From contig CM068593.1 in the NCBI GenBank assembly GCA_035048485.1, forward strand, positions 4,473,151 through 4,537,150: a stretch of 64,000 bases of DNA. Reading direction: 5' to 3'. The notes beneath the pieces were generated by a model. The model did not search any database. It worked only from the letters and a program-made list of their open reading frames with translations, and had not been told where the DNA came from. Shown piece after piece: positions 21,111 through 63,975 of the stretch (position 1 is its first letter; the number at the start of each line of letters is the position of its first letter). The translations under genes and the position numbers were made by a program. Source of the stretch: Pteria penguin. Taxonomy: Eukaryota > Mollusca > Bivalvia > Pterioida > Pteriidae.

Positions 21111-21127
21111 ATTCATTGATTGATTGA

Positions 21128-21708: not shown

Positions 21709-21771
21709 TTGACCAGTGATACGATATCAGTATAGTCATGATACTGACCAATGATATGATTGATTGATTGA

Positions 21772-22030: not shown

Positions 22031-22093
22031 TTGAGCAGTGATATGATATCAGTATAGTCATGATACTGACCAATGATATGATTGATTGATTGA

Positions 22094-22352: not shown

Positions 22353-22415
22353 TTGACCAGTGATATGATATCAGTATAGTCATGATACTGACCAATGATA
22401 TGATTGATTGATTGA

Positions 22416-22674: not shown

Positions 22675-22680
22675 TTGACC

Positions 22681-23673: not shown

Positions 23674-23864
23674 TATATCTTCGGTGGTGTCTGTCGCCCA
23701 GACAACGGGCGAACCAACATGGTCAGAATCTGACATCAAGCTGGATGCTGAGTGTGACTCGTTAACCTTACCATGTAGCCATAGCAACCAGCAGAATGAG
23801 GAGAAAGAAGGGATAGAGAGCCCTCAGGAGGATCTGTGTACACTGGAAGCTGGCTGTGTTACAG
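23674..23864 (+). CDS. TRAK1: TRAK candidate N-terminal exon (E1)
   Basis: An open stretch encodes an acidic, Ser/Gln-rich peptide ending in EDLCTLEAGCVT. It ends at a donor ACAG/GTAATG in phase 1, which fits the phase-1 acceptor of the HAP1_N exon at 32526, giving CVT-D-LCNSSNLPEVE across the junction. The vertebrate protein also has a Cys-containing segment just before its Cys-Asn-Ser block. An in-frame TGA at 23657-23659 means the exon must start after it. CTCAG/TA at 23673/23674 is the best acceptor seen, but the start is uncertain, and no in-frame Met exists, so a further upstream exon is required. The last 24 bases and the donor are copied into the tandem array that follows. Confidence 0.6.
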
Positions 23865-26800
23865 GTAATGCATGTGTGTACAGTGAAAGCTGGCTGTGTT
23901 ACAGGTAAGGCATGTGTGTACACTGGAAGCTGGCTGTGTTACAGGTGAGGCATGTATGTACAGTGAAAGCTGGCTGTGTTACAGGTGAGGCATGTGTGTA
24001 CACTGGAAGCTGGCTGTGTTACAGGTAAGGCATGTGTGTACAGTGAAAGCTGGCTGTGTTACAGGTGAGGCATGTGTGTACAGTGAAAGCTGGCTGTGTT
24101 ACAGGTGAGGCATGTGTGTACACTGGAAGCTGGCTGTGTTACAGGTAAGGCATGTGTGTACACTGGAAGCTGGCTGTGTTACAGGTGAGGCATGTATGTA
24201 CAGTGAAAGCTGGCTGTGTTACAGGTAAGGCATGTGTGTACACTGGAAGCTGGCTGTGCTACAGGTAAGGCATGTGTGTACAGTGAAAGCTGGCTGTGTT
24301 ACAGGTGAGGCATGTGTGTACACTGGAAGCTGGCTGTGCTACAGGTAAGGCATTTGTGTACAGTGAAAGCTGGCTGTGTTACAGGTGAGGCATGTGTGTA
24401 CACTGGAAGCTGGCTGTGCTACAGGTAAGGCATTTGTGTACACTGGAAGCTAGCTGTCTTACAGGTAACACTGTGTCACACTGTATGGTATAGCTAAGTT
24501 TGTGTGAGACATCTGTGTACACTGGAAGCTGGCTGTGTCACTGGTTAGTACAGGTGAGGCGTCTGTGTACACTGTAAGCCAGCTGTGTTACTGGTAGGTA
24601 CAGGTCAGGCATCTGTATACACTGTAAGCCAGCTGTGTTACTTAAGAAATAATGACGTCCTAATCGTTGTCTGATGTCCAGTAACCGCCCCGAGTTGCAT
24701 TAATCAATCAAATTGTCACAGAGCCGCGCAGCGGAAATCTACATATTGATTTTATCGACATGGTCAAAATACCGATCGACGGGGCTTTTATACGTCATGA
24801 CTGCTAGTAAGTCGTGGTGATTCTAACCATGAATATATCAGAGAATAATGCACAGTGGAACTCTATGGGACATATAGGGAAAAATTCTAAAGTCATGTTA
24901 GAATGGTAGATACTGGTAAGGCATCTATATACACTGTAAGCCAACTGTGTTACAGTTAAGTACAGGTAAGGCATCTGTATACACTGTAAGCCAGCTGTGT
25001 TACAGTTAAGTACAGGTAAGGCATCTGTATAGTTACACTGTAAGCCAGCTGTATTACAGTCGAGTACAGGTAAGGCATCTGTATACACTGTAAGCCAGCT
25101 GTGTTACAGTTAAGTACAGGTAAGGCATCTGTATACACTGTAAGCCAACTGTGTTACAGTCAAGTACAGGTAAGGCATCTGTATACACTGTAAGCCAGCT
25201 GTGTTACATTTAAGTACAGGTAAGGCATCTGTATACACTGTAAGCCAACTGTGTTACAGTTAAGTACAGGTAAGGCATCTGTATACACTGTAAGCCAGCT
25301 GTGTTACAGTCAAGTACAGGTAAGGCATCTGTATACACTGTAAGCCAACTGTGTTACAGTAAAGTACAGGTAAGGCATCTGTGTACACTGTAAGCCAACT
25401 GTGTTACAGTCAAGTACAGGTAAGGCATCTGTGTACACTGTAAGCCAGCTGTGTTACAGTTAAGTACAGGTAAGGCATCTGTATACACTGTAAGCCAACT
25501 GTGTTACAGTTAAGTACAGGTAAGGCATCTGTATACACTGTAAGCCAACTGTGTTACAGTAAAGTACAGGTAAGGCATCTGTATACAGTGTAAGCCAACT
25601 GTGTTACAGTTAAGTACAGGTAAGGCATCTGTATACAGTTTAAGCCAACTGTATTACAGTTAAGTACAGGTAAGGCATCTGTGTACACTGTAAGCCAGCT
25701 GTGTTACTGGTAGGTACAGGTAAGGCATCTGTATACACTGTAAGCCAACTGTGTTACAGTTAAGTACAGGTAAGGCATCTGTATACACTGTAAGCCAACT
25801 GTGTTACAGTTAAGTACAGGTAAGGCATCTGTATACACTGTAAGCCAACTGTGTTACAGTCAAGTACAGGTAAGGCATCTGTATACAGTGTAAGCCAGCT
25901 GTATTACAGTTAAGTACAGGTAAAGCATCTGTATACACTGTAAGCCAGCTGTGTTACTGGTAAGTACAGGTAAGACATCTGTATACACTGTAAGCCAGCT
26001 GTGTTACAGTCAAGTACAGGTGAGGCATCTAATATATGTGTTTGTTCATGTTTGTTAGGCTTTGATTAATTTTAAGGTTATTGTTGTGAGCACAGAACTG
26101 ATAAAGTTTCATTCCTGTCTCCGATGGTGAGTTTTCCATGATGGTAAAAATTAGGGATGGACATTTAATATCAACTTGAATATTTATCTTGTAAAACAAA
26201 ATAAATAAAAAGAATCAACTCTTTAGTGAGACATCTTTTCAATTACATAAATAGCTCCACAAAAGAAAGAAAAATGGTACACATGCATCATGTGACGACA
26301 TATAGAACATGTGACTTCATTTAGAGAAAATGGTTGTCATTTTGAAATGATTTTATCAAATTTAATATGACTTTTATTATTGTTGAAAGTTAGTAAAAAA
26401 TAAGTTCATGCATTGAGCAATGTATCTATTGTGTGAATGTGTCTGAGTTTAATTGGAATCTTCATGATGTTCACGCTAGTTGAGGTCACATAATGTGAAT
26501 GAATGTTCTTGCTCGTTGAGGTCACATAATGTGAATTAATGTTCTTCCTAGTTGAGGTCTCATAATGTGAATGAATGTTCTTGCTCGTTGAGGTCACATA
26601 ATGTGAATTAATGTTCTTCCTAGTTGAGGTCTCATAATGTGAATTAATGTTCACGCTAGTTGAGGTCACATCATGTGAATTAATGTTCTTCCTAGTTGAG
26701 GTCACATAATGTGAATTAATGTTCTCCTTACTTGAGGTCACATAATGTGAATTAATGCTCTCGCTTGTTGAGGTCACATAATGTGAATTAATGTTCACGC

Positions 26801-29800: not shown

Positions 29801-32800
29801 TCACCTCCCTAATCTCAAAGTTTTGATGACACTAGTTGAGAATGTTGCCTCTACAGATTTCTGTTATGGTTTAATGGATATTAATCATTTTTAGTCTGAA
29901 GTTTGTCTTGATGTTGGCATGACATGTCCTTGGCCCTATGTCCTCTCTGAGGTGATACAAGCCTAGCTGCAGTAGTATGTACAATACATATGATAAGTAC
30001 TTTATCTACCCAGTGATGATAACATGCAGAAAATCTAGGCCAAAAGTAAACAGATTTGTTTAACATGCTTAAAGTGTCAGGCTTTTGATGGACAAGTATT
30101 TACATAATGATTTAAATCATTTTTCTCTTCTTATATGACCTTTGACATTTGAAAGTACACTTTAAGATAGTTCCAATTTGTGATTCTTTTATGATTGCCA
30201 TTTTAATAAATTAATCTGACTCAAATAAATTGTGGTTTTAAAGTTGTGGATTGTATTGTAAAATAATTACATAAAAAGATTATCATATTCAAGCTTTTGT
30301 GTTATGGTAAATTTTGAATTCATGTAATATTATCCATTGTATTGGTATGCTTTATATGTAAATTGAAAAGAAAAAAGGGTATATATAATACAACATAAGT
30401 CAACATTTCAAGAAATATTTCAAGTTATTTTGAAAATAAATGATTGAATTTTTAAAGTTTTGTCTGGAATGCTTTCAATTTCCCTGTGTTTAAAAAGTTG
30501 ACCCCATTAATTAAGTAAATCAAGTTGACATGGAAAGCAAGAAAAGAATCAATATGAGAAGGATGAATATATGTATGTAACACATAACAGTTTATATGTA
30601 ATAAATCAATTTTAAATGTGTAAATAGTTGTATTCAAGTGAGGTGCAATGTTTAATAAGCAGCTGATTGATAATTTATCTTGTTGACAAACACTTTCTTT
30701 GTGTCGCCCTAGATCCAATCATCAACACCTATGCCATCATTGATTTGTGTAGTTTAACTAGGTTAAAGGTATTGCGTTATATAAATAGATACAGAGGAAA
30801 TATTTTATTGTATATGTTGTTGTGTGGGGATTAGCTATAATCTATAGACTTAGTGGTAAGGAAAGTGTTATACACAGTACACTACTTGTATACCACAGCA
30901 TTTCTCTCTCTTTTTCTCTTTTTATCACTTACTCACTCTCTGAATATCACTTACTCATTCTCTGTCTCTGAATATCACTTACTCATTCTCTGTCTCTGAA
31001 TATCACTTACTCATTCTCTAGTGTCTCTGAATATCACTTACTCATTCTCTAGTGTCTCTGAATATCACTTACTCATTCTCTGTCTCTGAATATCACTTAC
31101 TCATTCTCTAGTGTCTCTGAATATCACTTACTCATTCTCTGTCTCTGAATATCACTTACTCATTCTCTAGTGTCTCTGAATATCACTAACTCATTCTCTA
31201 GTGTCTCTGAATATCACTTACTCATTCTTTGTCTCTGAATATCACTTACTCATTCTCTGTCTCTGAATATCACTTACTCATTCTCTAGTGTCTCTGAATA
31301 TCACTTACTCATTCTCTGTCTCTGAATATCACTTACTCATTCTCTGTCTCTGAATATCACTTACTCATTCTCTAGTGTCTCTGAATATCACTTACTCATT
31401 CTCTGGTGTCTCAAAATATCACTTACTCATTCTCAAGTGTCTCTAAATATCACTTGATAATGTGGGGACGACCTCTCTGTATAAATAGTGTGCAGCATTT
31501 GGTTTGTAAGACATACTCCATTATGTCGGTCAATGAGAGACTGCTGTCCTGGTATCACATGTTTAATTGTAGTGGGTTAACCATATGATCAAACTCGAGA
31601 ATGCACACTAATCGCCAAATCCTCGAAGGGATTCGTATTAGAATTGAGGACAAGAAATTCCTGTAAAATGATTTGTAGAGAAGCTCTTTTTGATGCAAAA
31701 ATGCACTAAATAGCGCTTTCATTGTAACATTCCAAATATGCCTAAGTAGGTTTAGTAAGGGTTCGTGTTTGTTTGGTTCACACAGTTGCTATTCATGTCT
31801 ACTTAAAATAGAATGTTTTCATTGGTTGTTTTTTGCAGCATTGCAATTCCATGTCAAATTTCTCTGTCGACGACTTTCTGCAGAACAACCCAGCAATGTG
31901 TTTACAAAATGCAGTATTGTATTGCAATGATGTCAGTTAAATGTAAATGACCTTGACCTCTTAAGGATCAATATATTCGGGTAGAGATCTGATATTTAAC
32001 GCTCTTACATAAACACGATAAAGAAATCTGGTTAGGGTAAAATGTATGACATATATGTTTCAGGGTACCCAGCTATGAGGTAGTCACCAAAAATTAATTT
32101 GAGCTGTTACTGAATTTTAGAATATGGTAGTAATTTATCTCAAAACCATTAGATTTGGAATGTCTCATTTTAAATAAAGAAGAGTACAGAAATGTTGATG
32201 CTTTTTATCTCTAAATTATTATGTCACTTTAACCACTGAAGATATATTACGTTTGCCTTGCCCTCTTATATTTCTGCTTATAAATTCTACAGAGGTAATA
32301 TTTTTGTCACATTTTTTGCTCCATGCTTGGAGAACACCGACATTAATTTGTCATGTTTGCTGAATGTATACAATCTTTTTTCAGGTTTCTGAGGTTTCTA
32401 ATGCAGTTTTTATTTTTCATATTTCATGAAATATCTTAACCATGTTCTTCAATGTCTTATTTGTTATACACACTATTTGTATTTTTCTGACATGAGTACT
32501 GAATCTCCAGTGGTGATTTTTCCAGATCTCTGTAACAGCTCAAACTTACCAGAAGTCGAGATCTTAAGTTTGATTGAGGAACAGATTCCAAAGTATAGGC
32601 TGAGGGCAGACACAATAACAGACTTCTGTGGCTACGACAATCAGGATTGGATACAAACACCTCTCATCCCCATTGACGAGGACCTCGAGTTATCCACAGA
32701 CCAGATTAACGAAACACTCAAGTACTTTGGTAAGTAGAGATCTCCTACTATGTCATTAATGTGTCATTTCAACATTTGTCCTTTTGAGGAATAGACACCA

Positions 32801-47796: not shown

Positions 47797-47833
<37 letters not shown>

Positions 47834-52785: not shown

Positions 52786-52818
<33 letters not shown>

Positions 52819-55800
52819 GACCGTTCTCTCGATGTCAGTACCTCCCTCCGCCCCACACACACACTGACCGTTACCTCGATATCAGTGTATAACCGTTAGT
52901 TCTTTGCTTTATCCTTTGAATGGCTTGATTCCCGGGTACTTGGCACACATGTCGGTTATGCCGTGTTCAGGTTATACAGGATTTAAGGTGTGTTGTAGAG
53001 CAGATATAGTGACGCAGATATTAGGATATATATGTACATATAATAATTATATGAATCTATACATGTTCTCTATTCAGTCCTGACGGCTACTTACGAGTAA
53101 CCAACGTCATCGTTCCTTTAAAATACGATAATATATACAGGAATACTTTACGTCTATGTGCAACCGAAAAACTATATCACTTACAGAGGAGAAAATGCAG
53201 TATCTATGCAGGGAAACCTGTGTGAGATTCCGTGATTTTATTGTGTGTGTCTTATAGGTAGATTACAGCTTGACATATACGATGTACCGTTTGTATGGAT
53301 TGTCCATTTGCATTCAGATATTTGAAGTGATCTTTAAAATTGTGTTATTTAGTTTGTTTCAGTCATTTGGTTGGTGTATCGTGGTCATGGTTGTTTGAAC
53401 CAGCATTTGATTTTTGTGTTCATGGTTGTTTGTTCCAGCATTTGGTTATTGTGTTGATGGTTGTTTGGTCCAGCATTTGGTTATTGTGTTCATGGTTGTG
53501 TGGTCCAACATTTGGTTATTGTGTTCATGGTTGTTTGGTCCAGCATTTGGTTATTGTGTTCATGGTTGTTTGGTCCAACATTTGGTTATTGTGTTCATGG
53601 TTGTGTGATCACCCTCTCTGACATTGATTAATGATCTCTCTTGACTTCATGTCATCTTTATTAGTTGAAAGTAATTAGACCAGGTACTTTTCCTGTGTTT
53701 TGTTATTCAGTATTTTGTATACCTTATTGTATAAGTCGTTGTTTTATTATTCAGTATTGTTTTATTATTCAGTATTTTGTATAGCTTTTTGTTTCTTTTT
53801 CAGTATTATGCTCAGAGCGAGTAACCCAGATGACTAAGACTTACAATGACATTGAGGCAGTAAATCGTTTACTTGAAGAAGTAAGTATAAACATTGAGGC
53901 AGTAAATCGTTTACTTGAAGAAGTAAGTACAAAGATTGAGACAGTAAATCGTTTACTTGAAGAAGTAAGTACAAAGATTGAGACAGTAAATCGTTTACTT
54001 GAAGAAGTAAGTACAAAGATTGAGACAGTAAATCGTTTACTTGAAGAAGTAAGTACAAAGATTGAGGCAGTAAATCATTTACTTGAAGAAGTAAGTAAAA
54101 ACATTGAGGCAGTAAATCGTTTACTTGAAGAAGTGAGTACAAAGATTGAGACAGTAAATCGTTTACTTGAAGAAGTAAGTACAAAGATTGAGGCAGTAAA
54201 TCGTTTGCTTGCAGAAGTAAGTACAAAGATTGAGGCAGTAAATCATTAACTTTAGGAAGTAAGTACAAACATTGAGGCAGTAAATGGTTTGCTTGCAGAA
54301 GTAAGTACAAACATTGAGGCAGTAAATGGTTTGCTTGCAGAAGTAAGTACAAACATTGAGGCAGTAAATGTTTGCTTGCAGAAGTAAGTACAAACATTGA
54401 GGCAGTAAATAGTTTGCTTGCAGAAGTAAGTACAAGCACTCTCTTCGTAGCAATCAGGTAATAAATCATTCACTTGAAGACACAAGGTCATTCTATATAA
54501 AAATGGTAGTTTTAATAAAAATTGTATCATATATCCAGAACAAATCCCATCTGATTAAAACCATATCTTTATTCCGCTTCTCTATTTGTCCCATTGCATA
54601 TAAAGACATGGTGAAACCCCATAAGGGGTCACGTTCTGGTGAACTGTGATTTTCAGCCAATCATTGGATCGGTTACAAATTCCTGGAAATGAAATTTACA
54701 TGACTAGCGTTTGCATGTTTCATAACTTAGTTTTTGAATAGTGTTTGTTACATATTGCGTCACTTGCACGTACCTGGCCGAGCCATTGATTGGCTACGAG
54801 AAATAACGGTTTTGGTGACTGGAACGTCAGTTCTCAGAGGTCACCAGAACGTGACCCCTTAAGGGGTTTCTCCAGATCTTTATAGCAATGGAACAAAAAG
54901 AGAAGCGGAATAAAGATTTTTTTTTTTAATCAGATTGGAACAAATCCAGAAAATGTTATTTTATATGAAATTATTAAATAAAATATTAATGTTAATCCAC
55001 TGGTTATAGATGGTATTACATGTGATTGTTCTATTGCAGAAAGAGAGAGATTTGGAATTAGCAGCTAAGATAGGTCAGACTCTCTTAGCAAAAAATCAGG
55101 AAATCACTGAGAAAAATGATGCTTTAGAAGATCACCTGAGTCAGGTTACAGAGAAGGTAAGTATCTGATGATTATCCTGTCAGGTGATACAGAAGGTATC
55201 TAATTATTTATCCTAACCCTTGTCACTATGAAGACTTAATTATGTGATGTGACAATCGATGACACAATAGTCAAATTGAACATATTTCTAATTATATGCA
55301 AAATTCACGACCAGTGTGTATCAATTCTTCAAAATGTAACTGATAAAAATTGACATCACTAGTGTAATGTGTGCATGACTCTTCTAATAATTGACATCAC
55401 TAGTGTAATGTGTGCATGACTCTTCTAATAATTGACATCACTAGTGTAATGTGTGCATGACTCTTCTAATAATTGACATCACTAGTGTAATGTGTGCATG
55501 ACTCTTCTAATAATTGAGTCTGTCTAGCTCAGTAGCTAACATGCTTGGCTTGTGATTGAAAGGTCCATTGTCAAAAGTCTCTGGTCCAGATCTATCAAAA
55601 GGTCCCTTTTTGGTTATGTCTGAGAGGTCCCTAGTCCAATTCCATCTTATAGGTCCTTGGTCAAGTTCCATCGGAGAGGTCCCTGGTCAAGTTACATTTG
55701 AGAGGTCCCTTGGTTGAGTCCATCTGAGAGGTCCTTGGTGAATTTCTATCTGAGAGGTCCCTGGTGAAGTTCCATCTGAGAGATCCCTTGGTCGAGTCCA

Positions 55801-58800
55801 TCTGAGGGGTCCCTGGTGAAGTTTTATGAGAGGTCCCTGGTCAAGTGCCATCTGAGAGGTCCCTTGGTCGAGTCCACCTGAGAGGTCCCTAGGTCGAGTC
55901 CATCTGAGAGGTCCCTGGGTCGAGTCCATCTGAGAGGTCCCTTGGTCGAGTCCATCTGAGAGGTCCCTGGGTCGAGTCCATCTGAGAGGTCCCTTGGTCG
56001 AGTCCATCTGAGAGGTCCCTAGGTCGAGTCCATCTGAGAGGTCCCTAGGTCGAGTCCGTCTGATAGGTCCCTAGGTCGAGTCCATCTGAGAGGTCTCTGG
56101 TGAAGTTTTATCTGAGAGGTTCCTGTTCCAGCTCCATCCGATAGGTCCCTGGTCGAGTTCCAGTACGTTAGTGTGTTGACTTTCGTATAAAGCAATAAAG
56201 ACCAAGGTCCCATGTCATGGTAAATATGGCAAGTAAATGGTCCTTCACTGCTTCTAGGGGTCTGTTCCATAGTTTTGAATGTCTGTGCCCTGTATTGAAC
56301 AGATGTTGTCACCCATATGAAAAAATAAGTCTTGCCATGTCATAAAACAAGCTACAAATAAACTCTATATAATGAAGGCATCATTTTAAGGTGGCAAACT
56401 CTTTATTGGATTTAAAATTTCAACTTGAGATTCCATGCTTACCAAAGTACTATGAAATATCCTCTTTATTTCAAAACAATAGATACTCTGTGCTTGATAT
56501 ATATGTTAGACATATAGAATCAATAAGCCATTAGGAAAGCAGTTATACAGTTATGCTGTGTTTTTGTTGTTAATAGTTACTTTCAAAACAAAACAGTATA
56601 ACACTATGCTATTATATGGGATCATTCACCGTGCGCTACTCATGAGTGAAGCAAAACAATAACATGAATAATGAAACTCTGAGTAGCATGATGCCAGGAA
56701 ATTGAATAACTGTTACAGTCCATCAAGGTATTTGATCCTGGTCTGTTACACTGCTTTGTAAATCGCCATTGTATATGTTATATTTATTTGTGTATCATCT
56801 TCAATTGACAGGTGAATCAACTGAAACATGAGTTGATAATGAAAGATGGCCTCCTACAGGCCTTCACAGAGAATGTGGACTTGTCACCTAGTGATGAGTC
56901 AAGGTGAGTAAAACTTGTCACCTAGTGATGAGTCAAGGTGAATAAAACTCATCAACTAGTGATGAGTCAAGATGAGTAAAACTTGTCACCTAGTGATGAG
57001 TCAAGGTGAGTAAAACTTGTCAACTAGTGATGAGTCAAAGTGAATAAAACTCATCAACTAGTGATGAGTCAAGGTGAGTAAAACTTGTCACCAAGTGATG
57101 GGTCAAGATGAGTATAACTTGTCACCTATTGATGGGTCAAGGTGAGTAAAACTTGTCACCAAGTGATGGGTCAAGGTGAGTAAAACTTGTCACCTAGTGA
57201 TGTATCAAGATGAGTAAAACTTGTCAACTAGTGATGAGTCAAGGTTAATAAAGTGTGTCACCTAATGATGGGTCAAGGTGAGTAAAACTTGTCACCTAGT
57301 GATGAGTCAAGGTTAATAAAGTGTGTCACCTAATGATGGGTCAAGGTGAGTAAAACTTGTCACCTAGTGATGAGTCAAGATGAGTAAAACTTGTCAACTA
57401 GTGATGAGTCAAGGTGAGTATAACTTGTCACCTAATGATGGGTCAAGGTGAGTAAAATTTGTCACCTAGTGATGAGTCAAGATGAGTAAAACTTGTCACC
57501 AAGTGATGGGTCAAGGTGAGAGAAATTTGTCACCTAGTGATGGGTCAAGATGAGTAAAACTTGTCACCAAGTGATGAGTCAAGGTGATTATAACTTGTCA
57601 CCTAGTGATTTGTCAAGATGAGTAAAACTTGTCACCTAGTGATGAATCATTGTAAATCTTGTAACCTAGCATTGAGTAAAATGTCAAGGTGAATTAGACT
57701 TGTCATCTAGTGATGTGTATCAGTCACATATATTCGTTACCTAGTGATAAGTCAAGGTACCGTTAGATTTATCATTTATTTGTACATTTTACAGTGGAAG
57801 CAATGATGGGGTGCAGAGCTTTGGCACACAGTGTTTACACAAGAAAGTGCAGTCTCTGGAAGCTGAAAATCTCAAATTAAAATTAGAGGTAGGAAGATCA
57901 GGAGTTCTCATAAAGGAAGGGACACAACTCTGCTGAAAATAAAGGGGAAATTTATTTTTATTCTGTTGCCCCTGAATATGAAAGAAATAATTTAACTCAA
58001 ACTATTTCTGTACTTAAACTAACTTTATGAAAGCAAATCACAAAATAACAGACTGAACTGTTTTTGTCCCAATTATTTATTTGATAAATCTACCGTAGAT
58101 CCATTGAAAGATTTTTCTATCACCTTAAAATGGACCTTCAAATCTCTGTAAATAACTCAATAAGTACAAGTAGTTATAAAGAGAGTTTTTTCCAATTTTA
58201 CGTGATGTAAGGGGCCTTATGCCAGACACGCTACATTTTGCCGGGATTTTCATTATGATATTAATGCTGTCATGCTGACGTCAGGGTAAAATGACACAAA
58301 TTTTTATGGCAAATTATGGTATATCTGGCATGGAATGAAATATATATTAATATTAATAGGAAAAAAGGTCTGTTCTAGCCACAATGAACTAAATCTCATT
58401 GTACTATCTGATTACTATAGGAAGTTATGCATACATTGTAAAGGAGTGCTCAGTATAATTTGGTATTGCTCTTTCAGCATTATTATGAAGTGGATCAGGC
58501 AGACGCTGGCCTATATTAATGTAGTATATCAGGGAATCTTCAACAGATCATACAAAATTCTCAAACAAATATTCTGAGGTGTAAAACAACAATCAAATAG
58601 TAATAATATAATTAATGTAATACTTCATGCGTATTTTCAGACTGCACAACTGACTGCAGAAACATCAGACTATGAAGAAAAGGAGCAGAAATTAGTAGAG
58701 GACTGTCTAAACCAGCTTGGTAATTCATCGTCTTACATCTACATAGACACATTCAATAAGCTTTCCTCTCTGTACTCTATTTAACCTTTCGTTTGATTCT

Positions 58801-61800
58801 GTTAGATTTATCACTGATATATATCAAGACTTAGACCATGTTATCTATTGGAGTGTTGGAATTTGTTCTACCAGTATGTAGTATTTTGATAAATTAATGT
58901 TCATGATTTGACCACATTTATGTCCTGTCTTCTCTGGTGGGACGATTTATAACATTCTACAATATCCATTGGTTCAGTCACAATTTCAAGACAACTTTTG
59001 AGATTATTGACAAAAAATTTTGGTTATGCAAGAACACTGTTCATGGGAACTGTTACAATACAAGTTCATAAGGGATAAAAGTGTCCAAGAACTGTTACAA
59101 TACAAGTTCATATAGCTAGAAAAGTGTCTAAGAACTGTTACAATACAAGTTCATATAGCTAGAAAAGTGTCTTGGAACTGTTACAATACAAGTTCATATA
59201 GCTAGAAAAGTGTCTTGGAACTGTTACAATACAAGTTCATAAGCCAATAAAGTGTCCGGGAAATGTCACAGTACCACAACAAGGTCATAAGCCACTAATA
59301 TGTCTTGGAGCTGTTACAGCACCAGTACAAGGTCAAAAGCCAGAAAATAACTTAATACCTAATCAGTCAGACAAAAAAAACCGAAGGACAAACAATACTT
59401 AACTGCTGTACTTGGTCCTGGTGAATGGAAAGTAGGTCTCCAAATTGCGAGTAAATTACTCACATTTGCGAGTAAAAATGAAAATGGCGAGTAAATTGTC
59501 AGAACATTACCATTACTGTTTAAGTAATAATGGTAAGTGAACCCGTAGGGGCATCTTACAATGAAAATGTGTTCCACCAAAAAGTGTAAGCGTATGTGAA
59601 GTACGAATTACTTGATTCCGCAAATGCCTGATTTACAAGTTAAGTCTGGTAACATATCAAGCATTTAAACAAACAAGGTATGACCTCATCAACATGCGTC
59701 CAAATTTTAGTATCAACCAAGCTTTTGGCATCAGATCACTGAGGATGTTTGACACAGACTAGTCAGTGAATGTTTGACACAGACCAGTCAGTGAATGTTC
59801 CTGGGGTTGTGGATCAACTCATGTGCTATTTAGCCTAGGCCTAGTCTAAAGTTTAAGATTTAGTTGTCTAATATGTGATGAGTAAAATATCTAGGTTACT
59901 AGCCAAACATCTAGTTTTGAAAAAGAAACACTTGGAGCCCAGGAATGATATATTTTGATGTTGTGGGGATGTTTCCTTGCATGATCTGTACCGTCCATTC
60001 TGGTGACTGGTTTAAAGAAGCATTTTGACAGATCCCTATCCATCTGCAGAGTTCTTCTAGTATTTGCTACTAGTCACTTCTTGCAGAATATGTTGTATAG
60101 CAAGTAAATAAGCCCTCCATGGCGTGTCCCTGATGTCATATTACGATACCATTCCTTGCAGTATGTGATATTGTATTGGCATACCATTCCTTGCAGTATG
60201 TAATATCATATTACCATACCATTCCTTGCAGTATATGATATCGTATTACCATACCATTCCTTGCAATATGTGATATTATATTATGAGACTATTCCTTATA
60301 GTTTGTGATATCATATTACAATATCTTTTCTAATTCTAGCAGTATGTGGAGTCATACCTTACAGAATATGCTGTAAAGCAGCAGACTTAGGTGTCATAGA
60401 TTGGTACTCCATAACATGTTTGATATCATATTGCGATACCATTCCTTGGAGTATGTGGAGTCAAAACAGATATAATACTTAGGGAACATTTTACCTCTTG
60501 AATGATTTATTTATGAAATTTTTTACTGACTGATTGGTTTACTAATTTAGGTTCGGTCAAACAAGAACTGGAGCTGTATTCTGATGAGCTGTGTAAGAAG
60601 ACAGAAGAATGTGGGAAACAAAAAGAAGAAATAACACAACTACTGGCTCAGATTGTGGATCTCCAGAAACGTGTAAAACTGGTAAGAGAGTAACCTTAAA
60701 TATTTAAATATTTGGTTGTGGTTGACTATCCAACATACATTGTGGATTTGAACAATAAACAAAACCAAAAATAAGATATTTCACTATTTTGTAGCTTTCC
60801 ATTTTGACGTTATCAATAGACACATTACGTACTGTACATAATGTCACTATATACAGGTATGTAAAAGAGACATGCTAAAAATATAGAACATGTTTAACAG
60901 ACAAAGTAATGGATATGAGCTTTTGTTATATCAACATTCCTGTCAAGGAAGAATCTGAATATATATATAATATAATTACATAACTGAATATTAGAATTGG
61001 AATAGTAATAGCATGTATATATAAGAAAAACATTAAATATATAGACTGAGAAGTAATTCTTTATTTTACTATCTTTTCAGGTGACAGCAGAAAACATGGA
61101 GTATCAGAAGCATTTAGAGGCTTCTCGAGACTCCCAGAAGAGACTCACTAAAGAAGTACGACATTCTATAAAATCTGCATGAGAAATTGTGTAACACTGA
61201 GTAGCATATATCAATATAGAAATTCTAAACATCAGGTTTCAATGATGACACTATTTTATTTTCCATACTTAACACTGGTCTTTCTTACACTGACCACTAC
61301 CTGATCATTATTACACCGACCACTACCTGATCGTTGTTACATCGACCACTACCTGATCATTGTTACACCGACCACTACCTGATCATTGTTACACCGACCA
61401 CTACCTGATCATTGTTACACCGACCACTACCTGATCATTGTTACACCGACCACTACCTGATCATTGTTACACCGACCACTACCTGATCATTGTTACATCA
61501 ACCACTACTTGATCATTGTTACACCGACCACTACCTGATCATTGTTACATCGACCACTACTTGATCATTGTTACATCGACCACTACCTGATCATTGTTAC
61601 ACCGACCACTAACTGATCATTGTTACACCGACCACTACCTGATCGTTGTTACACAAACCACTACCTGATCATTGTTACACAAATCACTACCTGATCATTG
61701 TTACACAAATCACTACCTGATCATTGTTACACCGACCACTACCTGATCATTGTTACACCGACCACTAACTGATCATTGTTACACCGACCACTACCTGATC

Positions 61801-63420
61801 ATTGTTACACAAACCACTACCTATTAACATAGGATACATGTATCACAAATGCAGAAATGATTTAATATTTGATTCAGAACATTTCACTTTCTTAAATGGT
61901 AGATATATACACTACCCTCCGAAAGTAAGTACCCACCCCAGGAATTTTCTATAAAGACAAACCAGAATATGTCAAAATTTTAGGTTGTTAGATTTTAACT
62001 GATAGAATGTTGGGGCAATTTGTCTGCCAGGAGATGCAGAACACTTGTTTAAAGCATGCCTTAATGTATTCAAGCTCTGATAAGAGCAAGAGGAGGGTAC
62101 ACAAAATATTAGACTGAAATGTGCATTATAGATTAGTACTGCATTTTGTATATGATTTTTAAAAAATGTTTAAATTTGTTAAACTTCACTTTTGAATTGA
62201 ATAAAATATATAAAATACCTGAATTACTTCTATTTCCTCCATTTTTGTCAAATTAATTCCAAAAATATGAAAAATATAAAAGTGTGTACTTATTTATGGA
62301 GGGTAGTGTAGTACAATCATGATAATCAATATAATACATCCCTATGATATATTTTATTCATGATGTATAATATAATTATAATAATCAATAAAATACAACC
62401 ATATGATATATATTATACATATAAAAATCAGTATAATACATCATATTATATATATTATATATGATGTACAATATAATTATTTTAATCAATATAATACAGC
62501 CATATGATTATATATTATACTTGATGTACAATATAATTATGATGATCAATATAATACACCCATATGGTATAGGATGTATAATATTTTAGGTGGCAGAGCT
62601 CAAGGATAAACATGACGAGTTGTTACAGTTGTATGAAGAGGCGCTGGAGGAGATACGAGAACTACGGAAAAAACAGAGACCCAACGCTGTCAAACATAAT
62701 TATATGTCCAGCTCCCTAGCAAGTCTTCCGTCGGACTCCTTGGCATCGGAGCTAGAGAGTTCTCTGCGTGGAGAGCTGGATTATCCTAAAGGGTACTCAC
62801 CAGCAGAAAGGAAGTAAGTGTAAACATATATTGCATTCAAGCTGAAAACAGATATAAAGCAAACAGTGTTGCATCAGTGAAAATAGTCTGATATCAGTGA
62901 AAGCAGTCTGATATCAGTAAAAACTGTCTGATATCAGTAATAACAGTCTGGAATCAGTGAAAACAGTCTGATTTTCAGTGAAAATAGTGAAAATCTATCA
63001 GTGCATAATGAAAAGATATACTAGTAAATGGAAGAGTCCGGGCAAAGTGTTTTTCTACAACCATATTTGTGGAGATAGGAAACATGAGCCCAATTCAATA
63101 AATTTATTATTAGGTCTTTAATCAACCTCGTTGAATTTCAGAGTCCACAACTGGAAAGTTTTCGAGACGGCAAAAGCCGCCAAAAGGGCTGGTTCCAAGG
63201 CAAATTCCTTAGCAGGGTCACGATACTCACTCCAGAGTGCAAACAGTAGTATGTATCACCTAGCGCTACCTAGTGGCCAGAATAGTCATAATACTAGTGG
63301 AAACGATAGTGGTGGAGAATCAGAAGCCGTATCTAAAAGAAGTTCCATGTTTTTCTCTGAGGAAGACCAGTCTATACATAGTGAGAGTGGCTATAGTGCA
63401 GACCTGGACAGTTTCTATGG
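23674..63420 (+). CDS. TRAK1: TRAK/Milton trafficking kinesin-binding protein gene, spliced, 3' incomplete
   Basis: Joined exons encode the conserved HAP1_N region and the start of the Milton region of the TRAK family. Invertebrates usually have one homologue of vertebrate TRAK1/TRAK2. The protein is known to be a cytosolic adaptor that binds Miro on the outer mitochondrial membrane, kinesin-1 heavy chain, and dynein-dynactin, driving mitochondrial transport. Diagnostic blocks seen are LPEVEILSLIEEQIPKYRLR, TDQINETLKYF, VTQMTKTYNDIEAVNRLLEE, ELAAKIGQTLLAKN (an AAxxG CC1-box, the dynein light-intermediate-chain contact), EEITQLLAQIVDLQKR and KVFETAKAAK. All ten downstream exons join in matching phases with GT-AG introns. 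About 457 residues (about 520 with the upstream exon) are covered. Vertebrate proteins are over 900 residues, so the C-terminal half lies right of the window. Introns are unusually rich in minisatellites, several built from exon ends. Confidence 0.93.
23841..24470. repeat. 40-bp minisatellite made from the E1 exon end plus its splice donor
   Basis: The unit is the exon-terminal CACTGGAAGCTGGCTGTGTT followed by ACAG/GTAAGG and CATGTGTGTA. The first unit is the authentic exon end, and about 15 more follow. GT is kept in all units, as GTAAGG or GTGAGG. Because the unit is 40 bp, use of a later donor would shift the reading frame. Confidence 0.95.
24471..24640. repeat. Degenerate transition units between the 40-bp and 50-bp arrays
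   Basis: Three diverged units retain ACACTG-AAGC-AGCTGTGT and GTTAGTACAGGTGAGGC. They link the two array types as products of one ancestor. Confidence 0.8.
24641..24911. other. ~270-bp non-repetitive insertion inside the array
   Basis: Unique, higher-CpG sequence (GAGCCGCGCAGCGG, CCGATCGACGGGGC) interrupts the minisatellite between otherwise contiguous units. No coding potential, terminal repeats or clear target duplication were recognised. It may be an inserted element or the residue of the original intron. Confidence 0.5.
24912..26025. repeat. 50-bp minisatellite derived from the E1 splice-donor unit, about 22 units
   Basis: The unit contains GTACAGGTAAGGCATCTGTA, TACACTGTAAGCCAGCTGTG and TTACAGTTAA. 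It equals the 40-bp unit plus a 10-bp insertion that brings a second ACAG. Each unit keeps ACAGGTAAGG, a consensus-like 5' splice site. AGCCAGC/AGCCAAC variants are interleaved. Confidence 0.95.
26026..26459. other. TRAK intron 1, unique sequence
   Basis: AT-rich intronic sequence without recognised features. Confidence 0.6.
26460..27390. repeat. 36-bp minisatellite, about 26 units
   Basis: The unit contains GTTGAGGTCACATAATGTGA followed by ATTAATGTTCACGCTA. The CACATAATGTG core is an interrupted palindrome. Since 36 is a multiple of 3, the minus strand is open and would read a 12-residue repeat (TSTSVNINSHYV). There is no start context or flanking exon signal, so it is treated as non-coding. 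Confidence 0.95.
27535..27905. repeat. ~61-bp tandem repeat, six units
   Basis: Units contain AGTGTCCATGCATGTAGATT, TCCCATGTCC and AGGGAATGTCCTACTGATAT. Divergence increases to the right. Confidence 0.92.
27906..30900. other. TRAK intron 1, mostly unique sequence
   Basis: About 3 kb of AT-rich intron. A 40-bp direct duplication (GGTCCAAAATCAGTTTGGTT core) lies at about 29223-29300. No exon was recognised. Confidence 0.6.
28052..28088 (+). other. G-quadruplex-prone tract
   Basis: Five runs of four or five G separated by one to six bases lie on the TRAK sense strand within intron 1. The pattern fits the classical quadruplex rule; any function is inference. Confidence 0.6.
30930..31460. repeat. 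28/31-bp pyrimidine-rich minisatellite, about 18 units
   Basis: The unit contains TCTCTGAATATCACTTACTC followed by ATTCTCTG or ATTCTCTAGTG. The two length classes alternate. Confidence 0.93.
31461..32525. other. TRAK intron 1, unique 3' part
   Basis: AT-rich sequence leading to the acceptor TTTTTCCAG at 32525. An ATG at 32492 is in frame with the following exon (MSTESPVVIFP then D), so an alternative transcript starting in this region could encode a different N-terminus. Confidence 0.55.
32526..32729 (+). CDS. TRAK1: TRAK exon E2: start of HAP1_N region
   Basis: This 204-nt exon (phase 1 in, phase 1 out) has acceptor TTTTTCCAG/AT and donor TTTG/GTAAGT. It encodes the family's strongly conserved opening block: LCNSSNLPEVEILSLIEEQI, then PKYRLRADT, GYDNQDWIQTPLI and TDQINETLKYF. 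These line up residue by residue with the equivalent block of vertebrate TRAK1 (CNS-DLPEVE, LRADT, GYD-DW-TPLI, QI-ETLKYF). This is the most diagnostic exon of the window. Confidence 0.97.
32806..33540. repeat. 39-bp minisatellite, about 18 units, open in several frames
   Basis: The unit contains GAACTGTAGATCAGGTTGGC followed by TGGATATGGAATACAATGA. Since 39 is a multiple of 3 and no stop occurs in two plus frames and one minus frame, long artificial open frames result. It begins about 75 bp downstream of the E2 donor but does not clearly derive from the exon. Confidence 0.95.
33541..35622. other. TRAK intron 2, unique sequence
   Basis: AT-rich intronic sequence with no exon or named repeat recognised. 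Confidence 0.6.
35634..35902 (+). mobile_element. Family-A SINE, full length, with imperfect 11-bp target duplication
   Basis: The head AAGCCGGTGTGGCTCAGTGG includes an A-box-like sequence. The B box AGGTTCGACTCC follows, then the body and a tail ending GTGACGTAAAAC plus ATTCAATCAAT. The flanks are TATGCTTTGAC (35623-35633) and TATGTTTTGAC (35903-35913), one mismatch. It lies in TRAK sense orientation within intron 2 and is the best complete reference copy in the window. Confidence 0.9.
36024..36111. repeat. 88-bp near-perfect palindrome (44-bp arms)
   Basis: The left arm starts ATCGTGTGATACCC and the right arm ends GGGTATCACACGAT. The centre is TTCATCATGATGAA with no loop. There are about seven mismatches between the arms. 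The RNA or single-stranded DNA could form a long hairpin. Confidence 0.92.
36112..36715. other. TRAK intron 2, unique sequence
   Basis: No feature recognised. Confidence 0.55.
36716..36885. repeat. Short tandem repeat, about four units
   Basis: Units contain TGTCATGTAATCGGTGACGT, TCCTCCTTCTATTCTG and CTCCCCCTG, with unequal lengths. Confidence 0.75.
36886..37680. other. TRAK intron 2, unique sequence
   Basis: No feature recognised. Confidence 0.55.
37681..37795 (+). mobile_element. Family-B SINE, 5'-truncated with internal inversion
   Basis: Bases 37681-37721 are the reverse complement of the family-B mid-section (TTGCGCCACTATGTGTAAGA when inverted). Bases from about 37722 continue in direct orientation from the next consensus position (CCATGTCGTGATATAACTG, then GCGACGTAAAACAAC). 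The adjacency of the two consensus segments is the signature of twin-primed reverse transcription. Confidence 0.82.
37796..38149. other. TRAK intron 2, unique sequence with a (CT)n tract
   Basis: Contains CTCTCTCTCTTCCTCTCTCT around 38008-38034 and is otherwise AT-rich. Confidence 0.6.
38150..38400. repeat. 18-bp minisatellite, about 13 units
   Basis: The unit is GTGTGGGATCAGCCATTT or GTGTGGGACCAGCCAGTT. An 18-bp period gives six-residue repeats in three plus frames and one minus frame; these are artefacts. Confidence 0.95.
38401..39432. other. TRAK intron 2, unique sequence
   Basis: No exon or repeat family recognised. Confidence 0.55.
39441..39622 (+). mobile_element. Family-B SINE, near full length
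   Basis: The head GGCTTGGTGTAAGTTGTTAA leads to a T-arm CCAGGTTCGATTCCAGG. The body contains CCATGTCGTGATATAACTG and GCGATGTAAAACACC, and the tail is (CCAA)n. The flanks TCTAGTAA at 39433-39440 and 39623-39630 form an 8-bp target duplication. Confidence 0.9.
39631..40254. other. TRAK intron 2, unique sequence
   Basis: No feature recognised. Confidence 0.55.
40260..40312 (+). mobile_element. Family-B SINE tail fragment
   Basis: ATATTGTTGAAAGCGGTGTA followed by AAAGCTCCATCAAACGAAAACC matches the SINE-B 3' tail only, so it is a severely 5'-truncated copy. Confidence 0.65.
40313..41310. other. TRAK intron 2, unique sequence
   Basis: Weak triple repeat of ACCACTGTACCTGTACAC near 40940-41050; otherwise no feature. 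Confidence 0.55.
41315..41410. repeat. 34-bp tandem repeat with CRE-like cores, about three units
   Basis: Units contain CATCATAATGACGTCATATT and AGTCGTAGA. TGACGTCA, the palindromic cAMP-response-element core, occurs in two of them. Binding is not shown. Confidence 0.8.
41411..42369. other. TRAK intron 2, unique sequence
   Basis: No feature recognised. Confidence 0.55.
42370..42645. repeat. Two short tandem repeats (~42 bp x2, ~47 bp x4)
   Basis: The first has GACGCGTTAACCTGCTATGC; the second has CGAGATATGCTCAGTGTGAG and ACTATAGTGG. Confidence 0.85.
42800..43065. repeat. ~63-bp tandem repeat, about three units, ending in a SINE-tail-like sequence
   Basis: Units contain ACTGCTTCCTGGTACGTCGT and TAATTCATTACGCACAACAC. 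After the last unit comes GGCAGATGCCGCCACTAGTA, which resembles the family-A SINE tail (GGCAGATGCCGTCACC). The array may have grown from a decayed SINE. Confidence 0.7.
43150..43645. repeat. 37-bp minisatellite, about 13 units
   Basis: The unit contains GTCTTTATAGTGGATTTAGT followed by AGTATAACATGACTGAC, with GACGTAC and GACTTGC variants. Confidence 0.93.
43646..47539. other. TRAK intron 2, ~3.9 kb of mostly unique sequence
   Basis: Contains a short TGTATTGGAGTAG repeat (44530-44610) and a 34-bp duplication (ATTGTTACATGCAGATAGAC at about 46497-46556). No exon was recognised, although a short alternative TRAK exon cannot be excluded by eye. Confidence 0.5.
47540..47915 (+). mobile_element. 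SINE-related element with amplified B-box segment and (GA)n
   Basis: Four or five B-box-like sequences (GGTTCGAGTCC at about 47580 and 47674; GATTCGAGTCCC at about 47720; GGTTCGAGTCTC at about 47760) are spaced 40-90 bp apart. A (GA)n run at 47798-47830 follows, then a family-A-like tail (AATGCCGTCACTGCATACGT). A normal SINE has a single B box, so the head has been tandemly expanded. Confidence 0.7.
47920..48045. repeat. 41-bp tandem repeat, three units
   Basis: Units contain TCTCAGTATTTACACTTTAT, then ACAGCTCTGTCTATGAGTCG. They are nearly identical. Confidence 0.92.
48046..48515. other. TRAK intron 2, unique sequence
   Basis: No feature recognised. Confidence 0.55.
48516..48660. repeat. 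~22-bp tandem repeat, about six units
   Basis: Units contain ATTTTACCGTCAATACGACC with variation in the central triplets. Confidence 0.85.
48661..49615. other. TRAK intron 2, unique sequence
   Basis: Contains a poly-A/poly-G tract at 48890-48909; otherwise no feature. Confidence 0.55.
49620..51205. repeat. 32-bp minisatellite, about 49 units
   Basis: The unit contains GGAGGGTACATCAACTAGAT followed by AATTATGGCTGT. Variant units (AATTAGG, ATCAGCAAG, GTTGTCAATGTGGAAGG) recur in the same order at about 49850, 50040, 50430 and 50620, showing duplication of blocks of several units. Confidence 0.96.
51206..51993. other. TRAK intron 2, unique sequence
   Basis: Contains a short inverted pair CCGGGCGCTCTCG/CTGCTCGGTTA near 51764-51787. 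No exon was recognised. Confidence 0.5.
52005..52171 (+). mobile_element. Family-B SINE with imperfect 11-bp target duplication
   Basis: Head with GAGTAGTTGAGCGCTTGG and B box AGTTCGATTCC, body with CCATGTTGCTATATGAATGG, tail AAAGCGACGTAAATTC. The flanks are ATATATGGTGG (51994-52004) and ATATATAGTGG (52172-52182). It is older than the other copies by divergence. Confidence 0.85.
52227..52692. mobile_element. Foldback/MITE-like palindromic element, copy 2 (466 bp)
   Basis: Ends are CTACAGTCCGGGCCACTCAC and, inverted at the right, CTACTGTCCGCGCCACTCAC. It shares almost the whole sequence with 8655-9125 but in reverse orientation. The centre has GACGTGACGTCGCC and GGCGACGTCACGTC as inverted partners. 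Confidence 0.85.
52693..53394. other. TRAK intron 2 with a (CT)n tract
   Basis: A (TC)n run of about 28 bp at 52784-52811 is followed by a CACACACACAC stretch. No exon was recognised. Confidence 0.6.
53395..53610. repeat. 35-bp minisatellite, about six units
   Basis: The unit contains GTGTTCATGGTTGTTTGGTC followed by CAGCATTTGGTTATT. Confidence 0.93.
53804..53880 (+). CDS. TRAK1: TRAK exon E3 (coiled coil start)
   Basis: This 77-nt exon follows a strong acceptor (TTTGTTTCTTTTTCAG) and joins E2 in phase 1 to give KYF-V-LCSERVTQMTKTYND. It ends ...IEAVNRLLEE at donor GAAGAA/GTAAGT in phase 0. This block is among the best conserved in TRAK proteins (CxERVxQMTKTYNDI). The exon's last 40 or so bases and its donor are repeated in the array immediately downstream. 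Confidence 0.97.
53841..54440. repeat. 42-bp minisatellite of the E3 exon end plus splice donor, 14 units
   Basis: The unit is ATTGAGGCAGTAAATCGTTT, then ACTTGAAGAA/GTAAGTACAAAC. The first unit is the real exon end. Read in the TRAK frame it encodes IEAVNRLLEEVSTK, 14 residues, and stays open until a TAA at about 54247-54249. Isoleucine, valine, leucine and valine fall at heptad a/d positions. Later units change CTTGAAGAA to CTTGCAGAA, creating TTGCAG acceptor-like ends next to the donor. Confidence 0.96.
54548..54937. mobile_element. 390-bp MITE with ~100-bp TIRs and a perfect 10-bp target duplication
   Basis: Left end CATCTGATTAAAACC, right end (inverted) CAATCTGATTAAAA. Both arms share TCTTTATTCCGCTTCTCT and GGGGTCACGTTCTGGTGA. 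The flanks are GAACAAATCC at 54538-54547 and 54938-54947. There is no coding capacity. The 10-bp duplication with long TIRs suggests a Mutator-like non-autonomous element. Confidence 0.9.
55040..55156 (+). CDS. TRAK1: TRAK exon E4 (CC1-box)
   Basis: 117 nt, 39 codons, phase 0 to 0, acceptor CTATTGCAG, donor GAGAAG/GTAAGT. It begins KERDLELAAKIGQTLLAKN and continues as a charged coiled coil (EITEKNDALEDHLSQVTEK). AAKIG fits the AAxxG CC1-box found in dynein activating adaptors and TRAK/HAP1 proteins, which binds the dynein light intermediate chain. Confidence 0.97.
55141..55215. repeat. Incipient duplication of the E4 exon end and splice donor
   Basis: TCAGGTTACAGAGAAGGTAA at 55141 is followed 39 bp later (55180) by a diverged copy, TCAGGTGATACAGAAGGTAT, and both continue into TATC-TGAT/TAATTAT-ATCCT. 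This is a two-unit version of the larger exon-end arrays. Confidence 0.7.
55350..55518. repeat. 41-bp tandem repeat, four units
   Basis: Units contain TTGACATCACTAGTGTAATG and TGTGCATGACTCTTCTAATAA and are nearly identical. Confidence 0.93.
55519..56351 (+). mobile_element. SINE with its B-box region expanded into a ~26-bp minisatellite
   Basis: The head GTCTGTCTAGCTCAGTAGCT has an A-box-like TAGCTCAGTAGC. From about 55560 to 56160, some 22 copies of a GAGAGGTCCCTGGGTCGAGT-CCATCT unit follow. GGTCGAGTCC in the unit is one base short of the B box. A SINE body and tail then resume (AAGACCAAGGTCCCATGTCA, TTCACTGCTTC, GATGTTGTCACCCATATG), matching the order in the family-A copy at 35634-35902. 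It lies in TRAK intron 4, sense orientation. Confidence 0.85.
56352..56811. other. TRAK intron 4, unique sequence
   Basis: AT-rich sequence up to the acceptor CTTCAATTGACAG; no other feature. Confidence 0.6.
56812..56903 (+). CDS. TRAK1: TRAK exon E5
   Basis: 92 nt, phase 0 in, phase 2 out, donor TCAAG/GTGAGT. It encodes VNQLKHELIMKDGLLQAFTE, then NVDLSPSDES. The LKHEL-MKD-LLQ block matches the LRHEL-MKDELLQ block of vertebrate TRAK, in the dynein-adaptor part of the coiled coil. The Ser/Asp-rich end marks a break in the coil. The exon end is repeated in the following array. Confidence 0.95.
56878..57640. repeat. 34-bp minisatellite of the E5 exon end plus splice donor, about 22 units
   Basis: The unit is ACTTGTCACCTAGTGATGAG, then TCAAG/GTGAGTAAA. 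The first unit is the exon end (56878 onward). GTGAGT is retained in many copies; others read ATGAGT, GTGAAT or GTTAAT and have lost the donor. In the TRAK frame the unit meets TGA at once (AGG TGA), so later donors would add a premature stop. A few degenerate units follow to about 57765. Confidence 0.95.
57795..57888 (+). CDS. TRAK1: TRAK exon E6
   Basis: 94 nt, phase 2 in, phase 0 out, acceptor TTTTACAG, donor TTAGAG/GTAGGA. It encodes SGSNDGVQSFGTQCLHKKVQ, then SLEAENLKLKLE. LHKKVQSLEAEN corresponds to the LQKKLKDLEEEN heptads of vertebrate TRAK1. No tandem array follows this exon. Confidence 0.95.
57889..58640. other. TRAK intron 6
   Basis: Unique sequence. A short imperfect inverted pair (TGCCAGACACG near 58219, TATCTGGCA near 58324) may be a decayed small MITE. 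Confidence 0.5.
58641..58719 (+). CDS. TRAK1: TRAK exon E7
   Basis: 79 nt, phase 0 in, phase 1 out, acceptor GTATTTTCAG, donor CTTG/GTAATT. It encodes TAQLTAETSDYEEKEQKLVE, then DCLNQL. The YEEKEQxLVxDC motif is identical in pattern to vertebrate TRAK. Confidence 0.96.
58720..59025. other. TRAK intron 7, unique part
   Basis: No feature recognised. Confidence 0.55.
59030..59300. repeat. 43-bp tandem repeat, about six units
   Basis: Units contain GAACTGTTACAATACAAGTT and CATATAGCTAGAAAAGTGTCT, more diverged at both ends. Confidence 0.9.
59301..60140. other. TRAK intron 7, unique part
   Basis: A minor duplication of CAGTCAGTGAATGTTTGACA lies near 59760; otherwise nothing recognised. Confidence 0.55.
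60141..60470. repeat. ~35-bp AT-rich tandem repeat, about eight diverged units
   Basis: Units contain ATACCATTCCTTGCAGTATG and TGATATCATATTAC. Later units are strongly diverged. Confidence 0.8.
60551..60681 (+). CDS. TRAK1: TRAK exon E8
   Basis: 131 nt, phase 1 in, phase 0 out, acceptor TTTACTAATTTAG, donor AAACTG/GTAAGA. It encodes SVKQELELYSDELCKKTEEC, then GKQKEEITQLLAQIVDLQKR and VKL. The EEIT-LL-QIVDLQK block is a TRAK hallmark at the end of the HAP1_N coiled coil. Confidence 0.97.
60682..61080. other. TRAK intron 8
   Basis: AT-rich unique sequence ending in the acceptor TTTACTATCTTTTCAG. Confidence 0.65.
61081..61155 (+). CDS. TRAK1: TRAK exon E9
   Basis: 75 nt, phase 0 to 0. It encodes VTAENMEYQKHLEASRDSQK, then RLTKE. 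The donor is AAGAA/GTACGA, weaker than the others. Not splicing here would add only VRHSIKSA and a stop. Joining to E10 gives RLTKE-VAELKDK, which fits the RQLTAELRELEDK stretch of vertebrate TRAK1. Confidence 0.93.
61300..61825. repeat. 26-bp minisatellite, about 20 units
   Basis: The unit contains ACCGACCACTACCTGATCAT followed by TGTTAC. ACAAACC and ACATCGACC variants cluster in the second half. Confidence 0.95.
61910..62308. mobile_element. 399-bp Tc1/mariner-type MITE
   Basis: The left TIR CACTACCCTCCGAAAGTAAG (then TACCCA) is matched at the right by inverted CACTACCCTCCATAAATAAG (then TACACA). TA flanks both ends (61908-61909 and 62309-62310). CACTACCCTCC ends with TA duplication are a frequent pattern of Tc1/mariner elements. 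There is no transposase. Confidence 0.88.
62311..62589. repeat. AT-rich ~58-bp tandem repeat, about five units
   Basis: Units contain ATAATCAATATAATACA-CC, ATATGATATA and GATGTACAATATAATTAT. The array ends just before the E10 acceptor. Confidence 0.85.
62590..62813 (+). CDS. TRAK1: TRAK exon E10
   Basis: 224 nt, phase 0 in, phase 2 out, acceptor ATATTTTAG, donor GGAA/GTAAGT. It encodes VAELKDKHDELLQLYEEALE, EIRELRKKQRPN and then a Ser/Leu-rich segment (SSSLASLPSDSLASELESSL). The MP/RPN turn after the coil and the DSLA-E-E-S-R-EL pattern match vertebrate TRAK (LRNKTMPN ... MDSLAAEIEGTMRKEL), marking the end of the HAP1_N region. Confidence 0.96.
62870..62990. repeat. ~22-bp tandem repeat, about six units
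   Basis: The unit is TCAGTGAAAACAGTCTGATA. It lies in TRAK intron 10 and is not exon-derived. Confidence 0.88.
63142..63420 (+). CDS. TRAK1: TRAK exon E11 (start of Milton region; last exon in window)
   Basis: 279 nt, phase 2 in, phase 2 out, acceptor GTTGAATTTCAG, donor CTATGG/GTAAGT. It encodes KVHNWKVFETAKAAKRAG, then a Ser-rich low-complexity stretch (about residues 20-75 of the exon), then SESGYSADLDSFYG. KVFETxK and the terminal SFYG match the Milton region of vertebrate TRAK1 (KRVFETVR, SFYGSD). Translation past the donor stops at once (GGG TAA), so splicing is needed. The remaining exons lie right of the window. Confidence 0.95.
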
Positions 63421-63975
63421 GTAAGTAGTCTGTACTGCTGACCTGGACAGCCTCTTTTGGTAAGTGGTCTATAGTGCTGACTTAGACAGCTTCTATGTGT
63501 AAGTGGTCTATAGTGCTACTTAGACAGCCTCTATGGGTAAGTTGTCTATAGTGCTGAATTGGACAGCTTCTATGGGTTAGTGGTCTATAGTGCTGAATTG
63601 GACAGCTTCTGTAGGTAAATTGTCTATAGTGCTGACCTGGACAGCTTCTATGGGTTAGTGGTTTATAGTGCTGACCTGGACAGCCTCTTTTGGTAAGTGG
63701 TCTATAGTGCTGACTTAGACAGCTTCTATGGGTAAGTGGTCTATAGTGCTACTTAGACAGCTTCTATGGATAAGTTGTCTATAGTGCTGAATTGGACAGC
63801 TTCTATGGGTAAGTGGTGTATAGTGCTGACCTGGACAGCTTCTGTAGGTAAGTTGTCTATAGTGCTGACCTGGACAGCTTCTATGGGTTAGTGGTTTATA
63901 GTGCTGACCTGGACAGCTTCTATGGGTAAGTTGTCCATAGTGTTGACATAGACAGCTTCTATGAGTAAGTAGTCA
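63390..63975. repeat. 39-bp minisatellite of the E11 exon end plus splice donor, about 14 units
   Basis: The unit is CTATAGTGCTGACCTGGACA, then GCTTCTATGG/GTAAGTGGT. It repeats the codons for YSADLDSFYG plus the donor. Units 7-10 repeat the private variants of units 1-4 (CCTCTTTTGG, ACTTAGACAG, a 38-bp unit, GAATTGG), so a block of six units (~234 bp) was duplicated. A GT remains at the exon boundary in most units (GTAAGT, GTTAGT, GTAAAT). GT is followed by an in-frame TAA in many. Confidence 0.95.

Follow-up and report, generated by a model that had tools for sequence, protein, structure and literature searches.

We analyzed a 64,000-nucleotide stretch of Pteria penguin DNA (GenBank assembly GCA_035048485.1, contig CM068593.1, forward-strand positions 4,473,151 to 4,537,150), referred to below as the window and numbered from its first letter. 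Judged by its sequence, the gene that runs across it is bivalve TRAK/Milton, with 11 exons in the window (Ea to Ek), all on the plus strand. At four of the 11 exon 3' ends (23864, 53880, 56903, and 63420), the exon tail and its 5' splice site (donor) are tandemly repeated into the following intron. We consider it likely that the four arrays are minisatellites that grew neutrally from donor-spanning seeds and were tolerated through choice of the first donor. A donor bias of seeding alongside this neutral growth is possible.

Exon tails and donors repeated in four introns

Exons Eb to Ek splice into a single open frame, which supports the exon ends, and Ea joins Eb in frame (EAGCVT followed by DLCNSS), with a junction close to EAGTITDVCNSA of Liolophura. 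For Ea, an acceptor later than 23649 is likelier because an in-frame stop lies just past that position. The joined-exon protein matches bivalve TRAK proteins, the best being that of Pinctada imbricata (75% identity across 86% of the query), and the Pfam domain HAP1_N (E = 6e-97), in agreement with the initial annotation of the gene as TRAK. The query used in these searches held about five extra residues at the Ea-Eb join, opposite a gap in the relatives. At the Ef-Eg junction (57888), the predicted P. imbricata protein is longer by 31 residues, which may be intron read-through in its annotation.

Arrays were called with Tandem Repeats Finder (TRF), and copies were also counted by walking each array. 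TRF recovered the unit lengths and the 14-22 clear copies that had first been noticed at the four exon ends, with copy numbers of 15.9, 14.0, 22.7, and 15.2 for Ea, Ec, Ee, and Ek, respectively, compared with 16, 14, 26, and 15 by walking. Copies 23-26 of the Ee array are decayed (21-25 identities of 34), and the best-scoring TRF period of the Ek array is 233. All four arrays consist of head-to-tail units within 10-100 bp and are thus minisatellites. The initial annotation had placed the array boundary at the exon-intron junction; each array does span the donor, but the arrays start 25-32 bp inside the exon. The seed comprises 30 exonic and 10 intronic bases at Ea and 25 exonic and 9 intronic bases at Ee. 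At Ec, the exonic part is 32 bases judged by copy 2 or 30 by the consensus, with 10 or 12 intronic bases, and at Ek the consensus gives 30 exonic and 9 intronic bases (24 and 15 by copy 2).

The four units are mutually unrelated, as had been proposed, since all six pairwise comparisons scored no better than shuffles (P = 0.29-0.89). These scores rule out a common origin and leave the arrays as independent events. The exonic parts of the seeds encode TRAK protein, and the sequence around the Ec-Ed junction is strictly conserved; therefore, the repeated sequence arose in the exon and was copied from there into the intron. Two further arrays downstream of the Ea array derive from its unit. The coordinates of all these features are collected in Table 1.

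Table 1. TRAK exons and associated tandem repeats in the window
Feature	Position	Strand	Basis and remarks
Exon Ea	23649-23864	+	Open frame into Eb; 3' end certain, 5' end uncertain
Exon Eb	32526-32729	+	Joined frame; donor without array
Exon Ec	53804-53880	+	Joined frame
Exon Ed	55040-55156	+	Joined frame
Exon Ee	56812-56903	+	Joined frame
Exon Ef	57795-57888	+	Joined frame; donor without array
Exon Eg	58641-58719	+	Joined frame; donor without array
Exon Eh	60551-60681	+	Joined frame; donor without array
Exon Ei	61081-61155	+	Joined frame; donor without array
Exon Ej	62590-62813	+	Joined frame; donor without array
Exon Ek	63142-63420	+	Joined frame; next exon beyond window
Array 1 (Ea)	23835-24468	+	TRF; 40-bp unit, 16 copies; GT intact in 16/16
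Array 2 (Ec)	53849-54435	+	TRF; 42-bp unit, 14 copies; GT intact in 14/14
Array 3 (Ee)	56879-57766	+	TRF to 57649; 34-bp unit, 22 clear copies, then decayed to ~57766; GT intact in 19/26
Array 4 (Ek)	63386-63974	+	TRF; 39-bp unit, 15 copies, 233-bp higher-order repeat; GT intact in 14/15
Arrays derived from Ea unit	24504-24642, 24911-26030	+	50-bp unit; local alignment scores 83 and 63 vs. shuffle maxima of 24 and 20
Probable decayed two-unit duplication over Ed donor (55156)	55135-55213 (approximate)	+	Alignment

Copy numbers rest on a single assembly, in which collapsed or mis-joined repeats could have inflated them. However, the copies differ from one another, the Ek array has a higher-order structure, the arrays are merely 0.6-0.9 kb long, and the window contains no N, which makes an assembly artefact highly improbable.

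A two-unit version of the same arrangement had been claimed for the Ed donor. Alignment does reveal an old, gapped duplication there (P = 0.0005, 2000 dinucleotide shuffles), whose second copy begins about 20 nucleotides into the intron, placing the seed end at about +19. By a stricter comparison, 37% of random intron points in the window score as high, and we therefore count Ed only as a probable donor-spanning duplication. The remaining six donors gave no convincing trace of duplication (shuffle P = 0.89, 0.70, 0.92, 0.044, 0.23, and 0.52). A 39-bp array at 32801-33532, which begins 72 bp past the Eb donor, has two open plus-strand frames and one open minus-strand frame. Its unit is unrelated to that of Ea, and no similarity to exon Eb was found in the first 400 bp past the Eb donor, the extent of the comparison.

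Consequences of downstream donors for splicing

Use of the repeated donors would mostly ruin the protein: 48 of the 56 downstream donors tested would introduce a stop codon, and the eight exceptions all lie in the Ec array. Stops follow from all 15 downstream donors at Ea and from all 14 GT-bearing copies at Ee (21 copies examined, 7 without GT). The same holds for 14/14 downstream positions at Ek, where stops were sought within the extension only because the next exon lies beyond the window; the Ek copies were set at fixed steps and shifted to the nearest GT, including copy 10, which lacks GT. In these three arrays, the correct protein therefore needs the first donor. At Ec, donors 1-9 keep the reading frame (2-9 being the downstream donors without a stop) and donors 10-14 do not. 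The spacing across the Ec-Ed junction is constant in all 112 measurable proteins among the best 120 of 1280 matches, so an insert is not seen there, and this conservation suggests that the correct protein probably needs the first donor at Ec too. No stop interrupts the Ec array from 53881 to 54246, a stretch that covers nine donors; its translation contains 14-residue (two-heptad) repeats, for example IEAVNRLLEEVSTK, that would preserve the coiled-coil register if used.

After merging, the window contains 43 minisatellite arrays, which cover 38% of its length. In such a minisatellite-rich region, four, and probably five, small tandem duplications would have happened across exon 3' ends and then enlarged through ordinary minisatellite expansion, each added unit bringing another exon tail together with its splice donor. 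We infer that the copies are tolerated because the spliceosome would pick the most upstream donor, leaving the rest to act as neutral intron. This explanation is supported by the stops introduced by downstream donors, by the constant Ec-Ed spacing, by the lack of donor constraint in the Ea, Ee, and Ek arrays, by the loss of GT in 8 of the 67 downstream copies, by the precedent of human F7 described below, and by array coverage. Arrays span 4 of the 11 donors, compared with 4.14 expected when the arrays are rotated, and donor enrichment by coverage is thus rejected.

Evidence on a possible array function and a possible donor bias

Several observations weigh against neutral growth with strict first-donor choice. 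The first donor of Ea (CAG followed by GTAATG at 23865-23870) lacks the G at +5 that 14 of 15 downstream copies have and pairs less well with U1 than 14 of the 15, so that its strict use is not assured. Among 42 circular windows of the Ec unit, the donor 9-mer varies least. When each array is collapsed to one unit, assuming growth in place, four donors fall within such seeds compared with 0.35 expected (P = 0.00045); for 53-64 kb only, the count is 3 of 9 donors compared with 0.47 (P = 0.008). In this test, the TRF period used for 6 of the 43 arrays was shorter than the best-scoring period, and the arrays derived from Ea entered the count as two separate seeds. Furthermore, all four arrays have seeds that end between +9 and +12 in the intron (P = 0.008 for a spread no wider than 3, post hoc).

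The first two of these points would fit arrays that serve a function, with extra U1 sites aiding a weak donor or curbing premature polyadenylation, or with Ec donors adding 14-residue coiled-coil steps. The in-frame Ec donors 2-9 and the retention of GT in 59 of the 67 copies would fit as well. However, conservation at the donor 9-mer in the Ea, Ee, and Ek arrays does not exceed that elsewhere in the unit, and the Ec result, the single one of its kind among the four arrays, is weak evidence of donor constraint. There is thus no sign of selection retaining the array donors of Ea, Ee, and Ek, and in Ec such selection is possible. The constant Ec-Ed spacing, the stops given by all tested downstream donors of Ee and Ek, and unit lengths of 40 and 34, which are not divisible by three, also argue against function, which we regard as improbable. 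In the other arrays, the first donor pairs with U1 slightly better than all 13 downstream donors at Ec, better than all 14 at Ek, and equally well as or less well than 8 of 25 at Ee.

The seed results bear on a different proposal, namely that a transcription- or splicing-linked event at exon-intron junctions, such as an R-loop or a repair template ending near a U1-bound donor, starts the duplications, with minisatellite growth following. Such a donor-favoring mechanism had been put forward in the initial annotation, and our tests, all devised after the pattern was seen and in one gene, neither demonstrate nor exclude it. In addition to the seed counts and the uniform seed ends, array starts lie 45 bp or less from a donor, on its exon side, four times compared with 0.34 expected (P = 0.0005). 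No seed falls at any of the 11 acceptors (donors and acceptors pooled, 4/22, P = 0.0056), and arrays span none of 10 acceptors compared with 3.76 expected by rotation (P = 0.017, Eb acceptor left out).

On the other side, coverage shows no excess at donors, and selection acting on the polypyrimidine tract and branch point may explain why acceptors lack arrays. Compared directly, donors and acceptors differ with P = 0.09 (4/11 vs. 0/11), or P = 0.035 if Ed is counted (5/11). The Ed seed end falls outside the +9 to +12 range, which is then shared by four of five seeds (P = 0.033). The other 37 arrays show no clear enrichment of donor-like motifs (3/37 per strand, with backgrounds of about 6% and 4%), which weighs against the donor motif itself driving amplification and does not support it as a general driver. 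Taken together, we consider donor-directed duplication unlikely. A more specific version, in which junctions direct the repeated duplication of a segment reaching about 25-32 bases back into the exon and about 10 bases beyond the donor, after which donor arrays grow, appears somewhat less likely again. The initial annotation had alternatively suggested that purifying selection leaves only exon-anchored units recognizable. Selection can account for the lack of copies upstream of the donor, but it cannot alone raise donors above the intronic background.

Known systems, neighboring repeats, and significance

The initial annotation knew of no described system of this kind, a claim that does not hold. 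In human F7 (coagulation factor VII), as described in passages of PMC6627357, intron 7 contains 37-bp repeats, with the authentic donor located in the first of them. Of these repeated donors, the most upstream is normally the only one used, which those passages attribute to oriented scanning, and a change at +5 in the first repeat leads to exon skipping and use of downstream cryptic donors (PMC6627357). As in F7, all four TRAK arrays have the authentic exon end and donor in their first unit and donor-like sites in later ones. Sole use of the most upstream donor, as in F7, would be required by the reading frames in three of the four. The Ea first copy without G at +5 is a natural parallel to the F7 mutation. 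Unlike F7, the TRAK gene has four unrelated arrays of 14-22 copies and a probable decayed one, as described here from DNA.

Internal tandem repeats at exon-intron boundaries have also been surveyed in human segmental-duplication genes, where PMC2812944 reports 162 alignments and, after inspection, 27 intron modifications, with a mean of four 30-bp units and frequent alternative splicing. The TRAK arrays share the minisatellite size and the boundary position with these cases, but they are longer and occur at donors only. In intron gain, as outlined in PMC2891723 and reportedly in PMC4974935, exonic sequence with a splice motif is tandemly duplicated and the duplicate yields a new intron with both splice sites, whereas in the TRAK arrays the donor is multiplied within an intron that keeps a separate acceptor. 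None of the acceptors that follow Ea, Ec, and Ee falls within an array, and the copies do not supply both 5' and 3' sites. Judged by its title, Zhuo 2007 reportedly belongs with tandem duplication of exonic sequence and a splice motif. Our literature search, covering titles, abstract openings, and passages, found no paper describing a gene with several donor-spanning arrays. Passages of papers on earthworm metallothionein, CTNS, and C. elegans describe intronic minisatellites but no donor-spanning array. The TRAK case is a true and unusually rich instance of a known anatomy, and its recurrence within one gene is unusual.

Other repeats lie upstream of the exons. A 322-bp unit is repeated 5.2 times at 21061-22727, within a 36-37-bp satellite, with minus-strand tRNA-Ser-like matches in three copies; it is a tandemly amplified, probably tRNA-derived short interspersed nuclear element (SINE). 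There was no Rfam match at this position. Identical open frames at 15291-16190 and 19437-20340 recur 4146 bp apart, indicating that a stretch embedded in the 37-bp satellite was duplicated. A tRNA-Arg-like match on the minus strand at 191-260 (Rfam, 32.4 bits vs. a gathering score of 29) is possibly another SINE head.

For 5' splice-site choice, the TRAK gene offers a natural experiment, in which every true donor faces competition from 13-21 clear copies downstream, each within the same 25-32-base exonic context; therefore, strength and local sequence alone cannot explain correct donor choice, which would need distance, transcription order, or exon definition. If junctions direct duplication, array seeds should peak at donors genome-wide, with intronic ends near +10. 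If it is true that donors attract duplication, genome rearrangement would be tied to transcription or splicing in a new way.
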